From Golubevia sp. BC0850 (Eukaryota > Basidiomycota > Exobasidiomycetes > Golubeviales > Golubeviaceae), in NCBI GenBank assembly GCA_012976225.1, contig JAAVVG010000021.1, forward strand, positions 310,001-374,000: 64,000 bases of DNA, read 5' to 3'. Positions 2,292 to 52,962 of the stretch are shown here, one piece after another. The position numbers and the translations under genes were made by a program. Below the pieces are notes generated by a model. It made no database searches. It was not told the origin of the DNA and saw only the letters and a list, made by a program, of their open reading frames with translations. Numbering within the stretch: the stretch's first letter is position 1; every line of letters begins with the position of its first letter.

Positions 2292-5200
2292 TCAGGATTC
2301 CATGGCTCCACACCTCTCCAGCACTTTCTTCAGCCTATCCTCCTCATTGACATGGAAATGCGACTCGATAATGTCATCAACTTGATAGTTCTCGAGTCCT
2401 GGGACGCCAACGATGGCTCGATTGCCAGCAACACGCGGAAATCTGCCACTTCTGAGTTCCTCGATCGAGATTCCACTTCCCAGCCAAGCTGCTATTGCTG
2501 AGACCATGTCTCGACTTGAATGACAGTTTACGAATCTCCTGCTAACGACGCTTCTGGCCTTTTTCCAAGTGGCAGTGGAAGGTGCCAGAGGAGCAGAGAT
2601 CAGGTAAACCGATTCGACTAGATGGGAATTCTCTTCTGGAGACTTCGCCAGCTCTAGAAGTGCAGAGAGAATCGTGGCGCAGCCAAGACTGGTTCCTACG
2701 AGGATGACTGGTCGGTGTCCTTGAACTTCAGCTTTGAGAGTTTCGGCTAGAATTAGTCCAGCTCTGTGACTCTTCGTCTTAGCCCTAGAGAACAGTCCAT
2801 CCAATGCAGCGCCGGCAGCTCCGATGACTTAAAATGGGAGCGAATGGTCAGAGAAGTGAATCGAATGAACCTGTCCCTTTTTTAGAAGAAAGGAATTGAC
2901 TCACCTGTCAAAGGAAGGGTCAACGCTGCGAATCCAGCGAGAGCGGTGTGTTTCAAAATTTCCTCCCCAACTTTTTGACCACCAGATCGAAGAGCTTGAT
3001 CAAGGACGTAGCTATTCAGCCCTTTTCCAGCTTCAACCATCAAATCCCTCTCGAACTCGACAAGATAAGAGTCTCTTGAATCTATAGTCTTCTCAAAGAC
3101 ACGAACGAAAGACTTTCCGTGATCTTCAGGTTTCAGTAAAAGACCAGGAATGCAAATGGTTGCATGCAAACTTGGTATCGAGACACCAGCTTCTTGAGCG
3201 AGTGTCGGAATCTCATGAAAAGAGAAATCCTCTACTCCACGTAGCCTTCTCTTGACTCGATAACCAGCCAAGCCTCCACCTCCCAATCCTAAAAGAGTTC
3301 CCATCATGATGATACCTCCACCAGTAGCTAGAAAAGAAGCTCCTGTTAGACCCACAAGAGCTGGAGCGATGATTGGAGCGGCTAAACCACCGGTCAAACC
3401 TATGATTGTGCCACCTCTGATGGTCGGTGACAAGGAAGAGGAAAGGAGACAAAGCGAAATTAGCGAAAAAAGGACCATTGTCTTGACCACTTTCGATTCT
3501 CTTCACTCACAAAACGAAACCTCCAGCAATAGCTGCGTTCTTTCCCCAACTAGACTTCCCTTTCTCTTTCGCAACAGCCGAACTACTGATCGAATTCATC
3601 CAACTTTTCCTATCTCCACCACCTTCACTTGCTTCTGCAGAGCTCGAATTGATTCTTCCAGTGTTGACGTCCAAATCAGCTCCCGCCGGTAGATTATCTA
3701 GAGGGTCTTTTCCCTCCTTCTTCTGAGCGGCGCTTCTGCCCTCTGACATCAAGAAGTAGATTGATTGACCAAGGACCTTCTCTCCCATGAAGACATCTTT
3801 CCCTTTACATCCCATAGAAGTAGCAGCTACGAAGATAATAGCCCTTGCTCTGGAGTCGTAGTGACATAGTTCATTCGGTTTGACTGGACCTTTACCTTTC
3901 TTTTTCTCTGTTACCTGTTCTGCTCGAGAGCTGACAGTTTCCGCGACAGATCTACTTGCATCTGCGATTCCTTTTCCAGCAATTGAAGCACCTGAAGAGA
4001 TTCCTTTCCAACTTGTTGAAGCTCCGGATTTCAAGGCTGCACCCCAAGCTTTGGTTGTTGAGGTTGGAGTGGTAGCGGTCGTGGAAAAATTGCTTGGAGT
4101 TGACGTCTCTTGAGGAGCTGAGATCTCTTCATCTTTCGCTTCCTCCTTTTCTTCTCCATGTTTAGCATCTAATCCCATGTCTCCGAAAAGAGCATCTTGT
4201 TCGAAAAGAGTAGTCACACCGTCTTCAGCTCTGAACTGGCCCAAACCTAAAGCAATAAGAGCTAATTCATGAACCACTTCAACTTCTCTTCCTCCTGCGA
4301 GAGCACCTCCTGCTCTAGCTGGTAGCGGCTTGGACGGAAGAGGCGTGAAGATCTTAGTTGAAGCTGGAGTTTGAGCGTCCTCCGCGTTTGCATCTTGTTT
4401 CGATCGAGAGAGGGATAGAGCTCTCATGTAAGAAGGCAGCGTTGATCTTGACCTTTCAACTTCATCTTGAGGCTCATCCGCTCCGGATGTGTTGGGCTTC
4501 AGAGCATCTGGACCTTCGATATCAGAAGCTGGCAGGGGGTCTAATTCTTGAAGTTCAGGTGGTGATGCTTCTTGAATTTGTTCGTTTCGAGGTTCTTCTA
4601 CTGCGGCTTCTTTCTCCTTGACCTCTCCTTTCTCTTTGATCTCCACTGCTTCTTTGGGACGTCTAGCTTCTGGAGAATCACTGAGGACAACTAGTTCCGG
4701 ATGAAGTCTTGCAAAGGAAGAACCAGTTTCGAAAGTCCTTTCAGATTGCTTGGCTGCTTGATGTTGAAATTCGTCGTCGATGATTCTTCCTTGAGAGATA
4801 GTCATGATGTCTTCTATAGTATTTTCACCTGGTGGCAGAACTTCTTGCGAGACTCCTAGATGTTGGCAGGTGGCAGTGACGAACTGAGGTATAGTAGGTG
4901 GGATGGATGGAAGGCGAAGGATGAAGCTTCAGCTCGTCCGTCTGGCTTATATGGACACAAGAGAGGAGAGCTGGATAGGTTTCACCCGATCCAGACTTTG
5001 GTATCAAAGGTTCAACCGAAGGAGTAGCTCTTGCTTTGGGCATGCAGCTACCCCGCCTTGCCCTTAGCTCCTTCTATGCCTTCCTGGATCATGTTTGAAA
5101 GTACTCACCTTCTCAGAGAAATCTTCCCAATCCTGTTTGAATTCCAATCTTTTTCTGATCCTTCTGTTGCTACCAAACTCAGTCGCAGCTGGCTGATGAG

Positions 5201-36413: not shown

Positions 36414-36919
36414 TTATAAGATATCGATGTTGACGTCGCTGCAAGACAACAGGTTAAGGTCAAGCAGACCAGCCTTTGAAAGTGCTTCGCATTTCTCAAC
36501 TTTAGTGTACCCCTTGGAAGCTTTGTAGGCTTTTGGAGATCTCTTGAGAATGTCTAGGTTGTTTAGCACGTCGACATCTACGTCTGAGCAATCCAAGATT
36601 TCTAGATCGATCAAACCAGATTTGGAAAGAGCTTCGCATTTGTCAACTTTGGTGTACTTTTTTGATATGCTAGATCTTTTGAGGATGTCTACGTCGACGG
36701 AAGAGCAATCTAGGATGTTGAGAGAGAGTAAACCAGCCTTTGAGAGAGATTTGCACTGGTTGACCAAAGTGGCTTTGGAGCTGTGAAAGAAGAAGAAAGA
36801 AAACAATGTCAGATTTTGAAAGGAGAGGGTGAGTTGAGGCTAGATGTGACTTACGAAGGTAGAGCGTGGGTAGCTCCTACAAGGGAAAGAGCACACAGTG
36901 AGAGAGTGAAGAAGTTCAT
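36414..36919 (-). CDS. Secreted Kex2-type repeat protein with three Cys units
   Basis: A 143-residue secreted precursor. Exons 36919-36855 and 36780-36414 join at a GTAAGT/CACAG intron. Residues 1-19 (MNFFTLSLCALSLVGATHA) form a clear signal peptide. The rest is three copies of one ~26-residue unit of the form KCEALSKAGLLDLxLLxCSDVDVDIL. Each unit has two cysteines ~16 residues apart and an acidic DVDVDxL end. Units 1 and 2 end in ILKR, a dibasic site for the Golgi protease Kex2, and are followed by linkers SSISKKYTKV and SPKAYKASKGYTKV. Cleavage would free three small peptides, each able to form one disulfide. The layout is that of fungal Kex2-processed repeat proteins (repellents, pheromone and RiPP precursors); the unit itself matches none I know. 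A TATA-like box sits ~95 bp upstream. Confidence 0.82.
36430..36765 (-). repeat. Three tandem ~26-codon repeats in the secreted protein gene
   Basis: The coding blocks at about 36765-36690, 36640-36562 and 36497-36417 are similar at DNA level, with shared runs such as GCTTTCCAAA/GCTCTTTCCAAA and GACGTAGATGTCGAC. They were produced by internal duplication. Confidence 0.75.
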
Positions 36920-37011: not shown

Positions 37012-37020
37012 TCTTAAATA
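37012..37020 (-). promoter_or_regulatory. TATA-like box of the secreted repeat gene
   Basis: TATTTAAGA on the minus strand, ~95 bp upstream of the start codon at 36919, the usual distance for a strongly expressed fungal gene. Confidence 0.5.
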
Positions 37021-43321: not shown

Positions 43322-43417
43322 TAGTCTATCTGGGAGTCGAACCCAGGATCCCTCCGCCTGCAAGTCAAAGTTATTGAGTTTGTAAAGGAGATGTGATAAC
43401 CGTTTCACCAACAGACT
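43322..43417 (-). tRNA. tRNA-Val(UAC) with intron
   Basis: Folds as a tRNA on the minus strand. Acceptor AGTCTGT (43417-43411) pairs with ATAGACT, discriminator A at 43322. T8, D-stem GTG...CAC with the GGTTATCAC typical of tRNA-Val, anticodon stem TCTCC/GGAGG, loop T-T-TAC-A-C, and T-arm CTGGG-TTCGACT-CCCAG. An intron of ~23 nt lies after position 37, as is usual for eukaryotic nuclear tRNAs. Anticodon UAC reads GUA codons. Confidence 0.82.
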
Positions 43418-48556: not shown

Positions 48557-50694
48557 CTAAGCACAGAAAGCTGGGAGGGACTTGTTTCCTTGACGAGTAA
48601 ACGAGAGGATGTGGTCACCGATAACCCTTTCTGTGAATCCTACTTCACAATAAACGAAGTAGTCTGAGATTCGAGTTGGAAGAAGGAAAGAAGGTACGTC
48701 AGTAAAGAAAATTCAATGGATGCAAGGAGCTTCAAACCATTGCAATCTTCCGAGTACTCACATCTCCATTTCCTTCTGAAAACCTCAACTTCCCTCATCT
48801 TTTCTTCTTCGGGTAATTCCCTGATTTCCTTATGATCCTTCATCAAAGCAGGTTTAATAATCTGTTCAAAGTTGATTTCAAATCGATTTCTCCATTCTCT
48901 AAGAGTTCTGGAGTAATGAGGACCAATGTTGATCAAGCCTTCGGGAATCAATTGACCATCAGTTCCTTCCTTAACAGCTTCATGAATACTAGTGACACTT
49001 GGTAAAACCCCACCTGGGAAGATCCATTTCCTGATAAAATCGACTTCTTTAGAATAAGAATCAAATCGATCTTCAGGCATAGTGATACATTGGATACAAA
49101 TACTTCCGCCATCTTGTTTTAGAACTTGATTTAAGCATTTGAAATAAGTAGAAAGGAATTCCAGTCCTACAGCTTCTAACATTTCAATGGAAACGATTCT
49201 ATCGAATTTGTTTCTCCAAGCTAGAGGCATATCCCTATAGTCCATTAAATGAACTGTGATCGAATCTTCTAAGCCAGCAGATCGAATCCTTTCTTCAGCT
49301 AGAGCCTTTTGTTCTACTGATAATGTGAGAGAATCTACTTTGCATCCTGTGGTTTTGACTGCTTCCATGGCGAAGGACCCCCAACCTGTTCCGATTTCCA
49401 AGACTCGATCTCCTCGACGAATGTTTGCTCTCGAGATATGGGCTCTGAGTTTGGTTCTCTGACCTGCTTCAAGCTCATCATCGGGATGAAGGGTTGAATC
49501 TCTTGAAGGGGAAGATGAATCTGAAGCTCCGTTTCCATTTGGAGAAGTCATTCCATTGACTAGTCCGTTGGCTGCTAGCTTGGCTGAGGCGACTAGGGAA
49601 GCATCGTTGAGCATCGTGTTTGTTAGATCGGAATCCAGAGTTGGGAAGATGGCACATCTGGTTAGAGGAGAAGGGGAGGAGAGATAAGCTCCGGCTCAAA
49701 ATCCATCAAGGGATCCAACAAGAGACTCACGAGTAGGTCATATCGGCAGACAGGAAAGCTTCATACATGGTGTTGGACTAGGAAAAGGATGAGGAAGGGA
49801 GAGAAAGGCATGATGAGCTCTTCCGCGGCTGAGAAGCTGATTCTTCAAGCCAAGTCGAGACAGGAGTCGAATTCTGCTGATCTAGCAGGAACTATGCAGT
49901 CCATTGAACTGAGCTGCGCTTTTGATCTGAGTGGGGCAGAGCCACTTGGGAGACGATTCCTTACGCAATACTGCTTCGGAGATATCCTTCCCAAAGCTCC
50001 CGCTCTTCCACGTCCTTTCCAGCATGGACTTTTGATCCAATGCAATGATTCTCGACAAATCAGGAATCCAATCTAAGAGGATGATTTGATTGTTCGACAC
50101 GTTTCCAGCTCTATTGGGCCCCGATGCTGACCAACTTCTTGTGACCGATAAGGGAAGAGATTTCCTCTGCCTGTTACTCACGATATCATAATGAGCTCCA
50201 ATGTTTTTCAAACTTCCAACTTTAGTATTGGCATACCTTCTATTCAAAATCGACTGCACTTTGCTTCCAACCTTAGCAATGATTCCAGTGTCCAGTTCAG
50301 AAAGAGCTTCTCTATTGGCAATGAATAAAGAGAAGACAGTAGCTAAATCTGGAGTGGAACATTCACTTGACATGTAAGATTCAGCAAACCCTAAATCTTT
50401 CCCGAAGGCTAGTCTGAGATAGAAGTTTGTAGATTTGAGAACTAGAAGAGCAATTGGAGAAGAAGAGTTGTTTGAAGTTGTTGTAGTAGAAGTTGTATCA
50501 TCTTTAATGTTATGGAAATCTGTTGTAGATGGATTCAGAGATTGATCTCCAAATGTTAATTGATTTCCGTCTGGTTCAATGATATCCAATCTACCGACGT
50601 TTAGCTTTGAGAATAGAGATAGAACTGCAGATCTACAAGCTGGTAAAAGGATTGGTGTCGTAAGAGAAGATGTCAAGGACAGTAGCGAGTCCAT
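48557..50694 (-). CDS. Cyclopropane-fatty-acyl-phospholipid synthase
   Basis: SAM-dependent methyltransferase that adds a methylene bridge across the double bond of a fatty-acyl chain in membrane phospholipids. Exons: about 50694-50183 (ending GAHYDI), a ~60-nt exon at about 49784-49730 (SNTMYEAFLSADMTYS), 49660-48760 and a last one to the TAG at 48557. Motifs: YDLS-type entry, RVLEIGTGWGSFA (SAM loop), DYRDMP, FDRIVSIEMLEAVG, IRKWIFPGGVLPS, NIGPHYSRTLREWRNRF, and a C-terminal YYFVYCEVGFTERVIGDHILSFTRQGN. A ~40-residue Ser/Asn-rich insert precedes the SAM motif, as in other fungal homologues. Total about 500 residues. Complete, no sign of damage. Confidence 0.9.
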
Positions 50695-51516: not shown

Positions 51517-52962
51517 ATGCAACTCAAACTAGCTTTCATCTTAACCGCTATCTATCTCAGCTCCAGTGCTTTGGCAGTGAGTGCTACTTCGAGTATCAAG
51601 TCAGATTCGACTAAGCCGCCACTGACACTTTCTTTTTCCAATCACAGTACACCCCTGAAATCTCAGGCCTCATCACTCCAGGCTCTCCCGAATCCTTCGG
51701 CGCTCCCCAGGCTCACTTAAAGATCCGTGACGAAACCCCAGCTATCGGTCTCGGAGATTCATCATCAAGTGATCCAGCCGCTTTACTGAAAGGTGCCGCT
51801 GCTCCAGTTGCAGGACTCGCGGTTGACCAAGTGAAGGGAACTGTTGCCGGTTATCTTGGAACCGTTGGAACAGGAGTCAGAACTGCCAAACAACTTCAAG
51901 CTTTCTTACCAACTGGTGCCATAGCTGGTCCATTATCTGGAGCTGCTGGTTCTCTACCTCTAGCTGGAGCTCTACCAGTCAAGAGAGAAGATACCCCAGC
52001 TCTTGGACTTGGTGACGCCAGCTCTAACGATCCAACTGCTTTGGTCAAGGGAGCTGCAGGACCAGTCGCTGGTATCGCTACTGATCAGTTAAAAGGAACC
52101 GTTCAAGGGTATTTGGGAACTGTTGGTACAGGAGTTAGAACAGCTAAGCAGGCTCAAGCTTTCCTACCTGTTGGAGCTCTCGCTGGTCCTCTATCTGGTG
52201 CCTCGAGTTCTCTACCTTTGGCTGGAGCTTTACCAGTCAAAAGAGACGGGAATCCTCTAGAACAGGTCACTGGCCAAGCCGTTAACATCAAGCAAGTCGG
52301 TCCTAACGATTTGGTAGCTGACGTCAAGGCAGCTCCAGAAATGGTAAAAGGTGATGCAGCTCAAATTGTCGCAGAGGTGAGATCAGAAAGTGCCATCGCT
52401 TTCGCTTTGCTCTTCACTTTTGTTGAAGCCAATCTCTTTCCTATTTGTCTCTTAATGCAGGGAAGTAACATGGCTGCATCTACTCAACAGACCATCCAAG
52501 ACTTGCCAGCCAACGTCAAGGCTTCAACCGACCGTGTCCAAGCTGGACTCGCTTTCGCATCTAAAATGAGTTCGGAAGGCTTACAATCTAGCAATCAGCT
52601 GGCTCAAGGTGGATTCCAAAGTACTCCCATCCCTGGAAAGAAACCAACTACCGAAAACTTCAGCGAGAGAAACTTCATCGTCCCTGCCGTTTCTGTGAGT
52701 GTTGATTCTCGATTAGGGACTGATGCTCGATGTTTTTTTCTTCGTTCTTAGGTTTTCTCTGGTTAAGACTTTTTTTATTAATCTTCGCTGACTTCCTTTC
52801 GAACCTCTTTGTTTTCTCTCATCAAAGCTTTTCCCTGGTTCTGGTCCCAAAGCCAACGAGTTGAAGCACAAAGTCCAGGATTTAATCGGGCAAGGTCAAG
52901 GTGGATCTGGATCAGGCTTACCATTGGGTAAAAGAATGCACAAGGTCAAGAGATCGAATTGA
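51517..52962 (+). CDS. Secreted Kex2-type repeat protein with two ~86-aa units
   Basis: A 385-residue secreted precursor; exons 51517-51576, 51648-52376, 52461-52694 and 52828-52962 join in frame. The first exon encodes exactly the signal peptide MQLKLAFILTAIYLSSSALA. Then come two near-identical tandem units of ~86 residues, starting (R)DETPAIGLGDSSSSDP / (R)EDTPALGLGDASSNDP, with KGTVxGYLGTVGTGVRTAK in the middle and ending LPLAGALPVKR. So KR Kex2 sites lie at both unit ends, plus an R-D at the first unit's start and a C-terminal PLGKR and VKRSN. The units are Ala/Gly-rich, lack Cys and look amphipathic or hydrophobic. A less repetitive tail (FASKMSSEGLQSSNQLAQGG) follows. The layout recalls repellent-type and other Kex2-processed secreted proteins of basidiomycetes. 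No homologue recognised. Confidence 0.82.
51732..52251 (+). repeat. Two tandem ~86-codon repeats
   Basis: Blocks at about 51732-51990 and 51990-52251 are highly similar at DNA and protein level (for example GGAACTGTTGCC / GGAACCGTTCAA around the KGTV motif). They end in the same VKR codons. Confidence 0.85.

Follow-up and report, generated by a model that had tools for sequence, protein, structure and literature searches.

The precursor gene and its predicted product

The window, by which we mean the whole stretch of 64,000 nucleotides analyzed here, carries on its minus strand a gene with a single intron (36919..36414) that encodes a protein of 143 residues. Its spliced reading frame is 432 nt long (143 codons and a stop codon) and contains no internal stops. 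The coordinates, the protein length and the three-copy repeat given in the original prediction all agree with the gene model and the repeat alignment. The features of the gene are the following:

37014..37020, minus strand: TATA-like element (TATTTAA, by pattern match) lying 101 nt ahead of the ATG
36855..36919, minus strand: exon 1, with the signal peptide (assigned by eye) MNFFTLSLCALSLVGATHA and the first residues of the mature chain
36781..36854, minus strand: intron of 74 nt, GTAAGT...TCACAG, phase 2 (gene model)
36414..36780, minus strand: exon 2, with the three units and the stop codon (gene model)
36675..36862, minus strand: segment 1, residues 20-57, LPSSK...CKSLSKAGLLSLNILDCSSVDVDILKR, spanning the intron
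36675..36680, minus strand: KR site after unit 1 in the context ILKR, residues 56-57
36540..36674, minus strand: segment 2, residues 58-102, ...CEALSKSGLIDLEILDCSDVDVDVLNNLDILKR (gene model and repeat alignment)
36540..36545, minus strand: KR site after unit 2 in the context ILKR, residues 101-102
36417..36539, minus strand: segment 3, residues 103-143, ...CEALSKAGLLDLNLLSCSDVNIDIL, ending at the stop codon

The N-terminus consists of a hydrophobic stretch followed by a THA|LP site (both judged by eye), and the paralogues start similarly. Units 1 and 2 are followed by ILKR as originally described, while the protein stops at unit 3, which for this reason lacks a KR. Unit 2 contains an extra NNLD ahead of its ILKR, and a KK pair at residues 62-63 within segment 2 provides an additional possible cut. 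Each segment encodes one C-x15-C, with Cys pairs 31/47, 70/86 and 119/135 at a spacing of 16, which bears out the two Cys per unit that had been noted. The acidic DVDVDxL end assigned to every unit is found in units 1 and 2 (DVDVDIL and DVDVDVL), whereas unit 3 ends in DVNIDIL. The protein thus terminates with NIDIL and lacks, as had been stated, the CaaX end that marks basidiomycete a-type pheromones. Likewise, the TATA-like element is present at -101, although nothing firm about the suggested strong expression follows from it. The calculated average masses of the three predicted peptides are 3746, 4713 and 4400 in reduced form, and net charges of 0, -4 and +1 are predicted for them.

Divergence of the three units

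The KR-bounded segments align with BLOSUM62 local scores of 111 (segments 1-2), 101 (1-3) and 135 (2-3), compared with maximum scores of 47, 49 and 50, respectively, when the mature chain was shuffled 2000 times. Identity in the gap-free cores of 29 residues amounts to 18/29, 18/29 and 20/29 for the same pairs, and unit 1 is the most divergent of the three. Second codon positions are identical between cores in 26/29, 24/29 and 27/29 cases, third codon positions in 13/29, 13/29 and 15/29. This codon-position pattern of the repeats supports the frame as a coding one. Nei-Gojobori estimates between units gave dN values of 0.28, 0.38 and 0.25 and dS values of 4.4, undefined and 1.4; the estimates are saturated and usable for their direction only. 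Judged by these substitutions, the units are old copies whose amino acids appear to be under constraint.

A family of paralogues in the same genome

The window is part of contig C13 in an assembly of 25.8 Mb and 64 contigs. At least six further loci with the unit are present in this genome (C61:632.9k, C2:42k, C34:57k, C5:317k, C2:6.9k, and C4:478.7k); the family was searched with four protein queries (the window protein and three paralogues), and all locus numbers are lower bounds. Five of the six are predicted to be complete multi-exon genes whose splice sites are GT-AG and whose exons join in frame without an internal stop; they would encode proteins of 208 aa (C2a), 229 aa (C34), 466 aa (C5), 192 aa (C2b), and 158 aa (C4) with two to five units each. 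Long Gly- or Ser/Thr/Gly-rich stretches separate the units in two of them. The proteins start with MNFF or MKFL in four cases and with MNYL in C5. In all five modelled paralogues the first intron lies at the same point inside unit 1, in phase 2, where it splits the [AG] codon of C-x2-[LF]-S-x-[AG], and introns cut through units in five of the six models of the family. The intron of the window gene is located just behind the signal peptide instead, which makes this gene look like a divergent branch. By these gene models the window locus is a divergent member of a predicted family of at least seven loci.

The sixth locus (C61) departs from this pattern. It has a matching signal-peptide exon with an in-frame TGA immediately ahead of the probable splice donor, and is either a pseudogene or has another exon structure or splicing. 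Its single unit matches the third window unit at 61% over 46 residues, measures 17 residues from Cys to Cys, and has a KR before it and none after it. Because of the in-frame TGA, C61 was omitted from the count of 20 units used below.

A TATA-like element was found between -101 and -166 from the ATG in six of the seven loci, a raw count without a chance rate. It reads TATAAA in C2a, C34, C2b, and C4 and TATAAG in C61 (all at -121 to -166); no such element was found in C5 by the patterns used.

We should also note two observations on individual paralogues. A comparison of C2:38500-46500 with C34:53500-61500 gave 98-100% identity at positions 4101-4300 of the former region (intron 3 and the flanking exon ends) and 54-97% per 100-nt block elsewhere, with the last block (alignment end, 0 identity) omitted. 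Identity this uneven suggests that gene conversion took place recently or that a segmental duplication was patchy. A subtelomeric location was considered for C2 and C34 and is not claimed, as neither TTAGGG nor CCCTAA occurs in three 3-kb contig-end stretches. At the 3' end of C5, the last unit is succeeded by a hydrophobic tail, PTIKIGEGLLPAVTSIVGGIIGILD, with a possible part in membrane or wall association.

Dibasic sites at the unit ends and a candidate kexin

The distance from Cys to Cys is exactly 17 residues (C-x15-C) in 19 of the 20 units of the six models and 16 in one C5 unit; the units were chosen by eye, and the count is partly a product of that choice. A KR or RR occurs within the 30 residues after the second Cys in 17 of the 20 units, at a distance of 8-16 residues, and is absent from this range in the other three. 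Viewed from the sites, 17 of the 20 KR/RR pairs of the mature chains fall 7-22 residues after the second Cys of a unit, and the remaining three are all located in C4. When sites were placed at random in the same proteins, a mean of 5.1 fell in this range and 17 was reached in 0 of 100000 trials. With the near-copy C34 excluded, 13 of 16 sites lie at unit ends versus a mean of 3.9 (again 0 of 100000 trials). The range of 7-22 residues was fixed after the sequences had been inspected, and sites other than KR and RR did not enter the test. KK pairs, which are also counted in surveys of Kex2-processed repeat proteins (KEPs), lie mostly away from the unit ends in this family, as at residue 62 of the window protein.

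The residues ahead of the unit-end sites vary (ILKR, ILRR, VLKR, IGKR, IGRR, LKKR, LRKR, HNKR), with ILKR or ILRR at 10 of the 17. Of the 17 unit-end sites, 15 have L, I, V, A, or P in position P4, as does one of the three others (raw counts, without a background rate). Kex2 is described as preferring Arg at P1, with Lys favored at P2 and an aliphatic residue at P4 (PMC8528282). A match to P_proprotein of 64.3 bits (cut-off 21) is present in the same genome at C5:266553-266738, and the surrounding 5 kb encode the S8/subtilisin-type motifs DDGLD, HGT, and GTSAAAP and a hydrophobic, membrane-like stretch (identified by eye). It is therefore very likely that the genome encodes a kexin able to do the cutting. 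Taken together, the five modelled paralogues, the KR/RR placement and this putative kexin locus lend good support to the multi-unit Cys-peptide precursor of Kex2 type that was originally proposed, and we are confident, if not certain, that the window precursor would be processed by Kex2.

One competing explanation is that the family consists of modular proteins, secreted or in the cell wall, whose units remain joined or are only partly cut and whose ILKR end is structural, resembling a Kex2 site by accident. The three units without a nearby KR/RR would fit such a family, as would the long Gly- or Ser/Thr/Gly-rich stretches that connect units in two paralogues. Polyhydrophobins provide a precedent in that a single chain keeps several domains, whose cleavage is yet to be evaluated (PMC12375992). 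However, 17 of 20 KR/RR pairs occur at unit ends while the residues preceding them vary, marking the dibasic pair itself as the part that is kept, and we regard linked or only partly cut units as unlikely.

Searches for domains, folds, and relatives

The window protein gave nothing above cut-off against Pfam (E-values up to 10); the sub-threshold hits were HTH_NWD1 at 17.6 bits (cut-off 27) and Dicer_dimer at 13.8 bits (cut-off 23.7). Among ten unit sequences, one unit had one weak Pfam match (Dicer_dimer, E-value 0.23). Four of the five modelled paralogues (C34 was left out) were compared with Pfam at E-values up to 1: three were blank and C5 had sub-threshold matches to DUF6030 and Presenilin. 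These Pfam searches placed the unit in no known, non-processed family. Hydrophobin domains have eight Cys, and the hydrophobin profile matched neither the window protein nor the same four paralogues, in agreement with the hydrophobin pattern having been denied at the outset. A PDB sequence search returned chance-level matches only (best E-value 0.25). Scans of viral contigs and of bacterial and archaeal genomes yielded 8 and 29 pattern matches, respectively, none of which was confirmed; a lack of relatives there is expected for a fungal gene.

A leucine-rich solenoid was also considered, prompted by an LxLxxC pattern and a weak match to a PP1 regulatory subunit (E-value 1.1). It was rejected because the unit starts are 39 and 49 residues apart, KR sites lie between the units, and a locus with a single unit exists. 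AlphaFold modelled one unit, given with two sister units (3 sequences), at a mean pLDDT of 66.9 with a single helix at residues 13-22 (KVEKCEALSK), and the exon-2 chain alone at a mean pLDDT of 44.2; such poor models are unfit for a fold search.

Among the articles listed by literature searches we found no description of this unit, with the supplementary tables of the KEP studies outside the scope of those searches. The unit thus appears to match no described one in Pfam or among PDB sequences, and its novelty as a sequence family is judged against these collections, without fungal proteomes. The earlier statement that it belongs to no known class holds for the unit in this sense (in Pfam nothing reached the cut-off, and among PDB sequences nothing was significant) but not for the layout of the protein, which is that of the known KEP class.

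Proposed processing and role

We propose that the signal peptide directs the precursor into the secretory pathway, where kexin would cleave after both ILKR motifs; the KR left at the cut ends would be removed by a carboxypeptidase of Kex1 type. Three related peptides of 36, 43, and 41 residues, with the ends DVDIL, NLDIL, and NIDIL, respectively, would be released, each with a C-x15-C pair, probably closed as one disulfide, and a tail of alternating acidic and hydrophobic residues. The family as a whole would supply secreted or wall-bound peptides that work as smut repellents do. For the window protein, we infer cleavage, KR trimming, disulfides, export and a surface role from the sequence. 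As a whole, this model of a Kex2-processed repeat precursor is the probable explanation of the window gene.

A role at the surface or wall is the more tentative part: we consider it possible, with analogy of layout as its basis. It is favored by a layout that comes closest to that of Rep1, and for C5, too, short peptides are predicted along with a long piece rich in Ser/Thr/Gly. Polar and hydrophobic residues alternate in the tails, with a beta-moment shuffle fraction of at most 0.05 in 7 of the 12 tails tested (from 12 of the 20 units); values for the window tails are borderline (0.058, 0.043, and 0.051). Alternating tails of this kind would suit a strand, weakly so in the window units, and give a weak hint toward repellent-like surface activity. 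Two observations count against a surface role. Helical amphipathicity was not significant in any of the 12 Cys-to-Cys cores tested (shuffle fraction at least 0.088), and the assembly contains nine hydrophobin matches over cut-off, on C6 and C55, so that a substitute for hydrophobins is not needed. More speculatively, the C-x15-C unit might be an undescribed fold that, in basidiomycete-type fungi, founds a third class of Kex2-released, disulfide-stabilized surface peptides in addition to hydrophobins and repellents, deployed as short peptides as well as in a form anchored to the tips of mucin-like stalks; we think this improbable.

The Kex2 step is shared by an explanation in which the released peptides act against other organisms, as antimicrobial or killer-type peptides or host-directed effectors, and have been diversified by duplication. 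Small, possibly disulfide-bonded peptides encoded by a divergent multigene family would be in keeping with this, as would the near-copy pair C2a/C34 with its uneven identity (54-100% per 100-nt block). Membrane-active peptides are typically cationic, and the net charges of 0, -4, and +1 are unlike theirs; moreover, the window units show amino-acid constraint and not diversification. Although KEPs include candidalysin (PMC9769878) and repeat effectors (PMC8528282), we hold a role against other organisms to be rather doubtful, on a par with that of linked units.

Signaling peptides of the alpha-pheromone or quorum type are a distant third, and we give them little credence. The precursor layout is the one seen in ascomycete alpha-factor, two Cys are conserved in certain alpha-pheromones, and a basidiomycete yeast is reported to have one such repeat (PMC6339444). 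However, the units are 36-43 aa long and vary from copy to copy, only one of the 17 unit-end sites precedes an XA/XP dipeptide (the SP behind the second site of the window protein), and the CaaX end is missing from the window protein. The assembly contains a match to STE3 but none to STE2, a weak point since the STE2 search was silent in control genomes too. Alongside the hydrophobin matches, this pattern of STE3 without STE2 suggests that the genome belongs to Basidiomycota. The fit with pheromone precursors that was originally suggested is thereby weakly disfavored. The same suggestion had extended to RiPP precursors, and although a signal peptide and Kex2-separated repeats would suit cyclized peptides of the ustiloxin type, we find these barely credible here, as dikaritin cores are much shorter than units of 36-43 aa, none of six neighboring window ORFs compared with Pfam gave a UstYa match, and, more weakly, the assembly has no UstYa/DUF3328 match (control genomes were silent too, and introns can hide it).

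Other features of the window and the assembly

A second repeat protein of secreted, Kex2 type is encoded in the window at 51517-52694 (plus strand) and beyond. It has a signal-peptide-like start, MQLKLAFILTAIYLSSSALA, and two closely similar segments of 86 residues, both ending in ALPVKR; its ORF had no match in Pfam. On the minus strand, the ORF at 48640-50694 encodes a cyclopropane/mycolic acid cyclopropane synthase domain (PF02353, E-value 1.4e-51), and the ORF upstream of it may be the 5' part of the same gene. A tRNA at 43322-43417 (minus strand) scored 45.7 bits with Rfam and is missing from the ARAGORN list; at 96 nt versus a model of 71 positions, it perhaps contains an intron. Outside the window, the hydrophobin matches on C6 form opposite-strand pairs of equal score at 82k/178k and 477k/528k, as if they were inverted duplicates.

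Comparison with known systems

By its sequence features, the layout of the window protein is that of a known class, the KEPs (PMC6339444, PMC7329392, PMC9769878). This class is very diverse, with 7878 KEPs reported in 1345 of 1461 strains, comprising 838 types and 2560 stand-alone cases (PMC7329392), and given such diversity a new unit type is expected and not startling. The window protein shares with KEPs a signal-peptide-like start and similar segments divided by KR. KEPs are defined by an N-terminal signal sequence, three or more segments of 8-100 aa that resemble one another, KR between them, and a kexin in the genome; here, the segments measure 38, 45, and 41 aa, all pairs score far above the shuffles, KR lies between them (residues 56 and 101), and the kexin-type locus is present. 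Published surveys scored repeats by a value of 0.6 (PMC7329392) or 70% identity (PMC9769878), in place of which we used the shuffle test. The pipeline of Le Marquer et al. (PMC6339444) further sets a cut-off of at least four fragments after KR/RR cutting. With two KR sites and three fragments, the window protein falls below it, while C2a, with four KR/RR sites, would pass. The window protein differs from KEPs in having three imperfect segments and a unit that carries a fixed Cys pair (the words cysteine, disulfide, and Cys are absent from the main text of PMC9769878 in a word search), and its family differs in the introns that cut through the units.

Two further systems share part of this organization. 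Ascomycete alpha-type pheromone precursors with two Cys per repeat (PMC6339444) also have a signal peptide and Kex2 sites, but their peptides are described as 9-24 aa long and, as a rule, accompanied by STE13 signatures, as opposed to 36-43 aa and XA/XP after one of 17 sites in the window family. The tri- and pentahydrophobins of Claviceps (PMC12375992) resemble the family in that a single secreted chain combines a number of small Cys domains, with Gly-rich linkers in both. They differ from it in that the window family has two Cys per unit and no hydrophobin match in the five proteins scanned.

The closest of the known layouts, by analogy, is that of Rep1 of Ustilago, which is described as having repeats of 34-55 aa with Kex2 sites (PMC4617103; similar in PMC2515848) and as giving ten peptides of 35-53 aa and one piece of 228 aa (PMC4617103). 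Rep1 of Ustilago maydis is described as cut by Kex2 into peptides of 35-53 aa and a longer piece, a piece of which kind is also predicted for C5, and it differs in having 12 (PMC4617103) or 10 (PMC2515848) repeats versus three window units, a comparison made by description only. The window family is not a new mechanism, and its interpretation is supported for the architecture as predicted from the gene models. KEPs are common in fungi, and few of their peptides have been observed or assigned a role (PMC9769878); the KEPs of Coprinopsis were studied with Pichia as host (PMC9769878). Split-unit exons and few cut sites suggest that gene predictors and filters of at least four fragments would miss members of this kind. 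With its fixed Cys spacing, kept cut site and seven loci, the family offers clear targets for mass spectrometry and a searchable profile.
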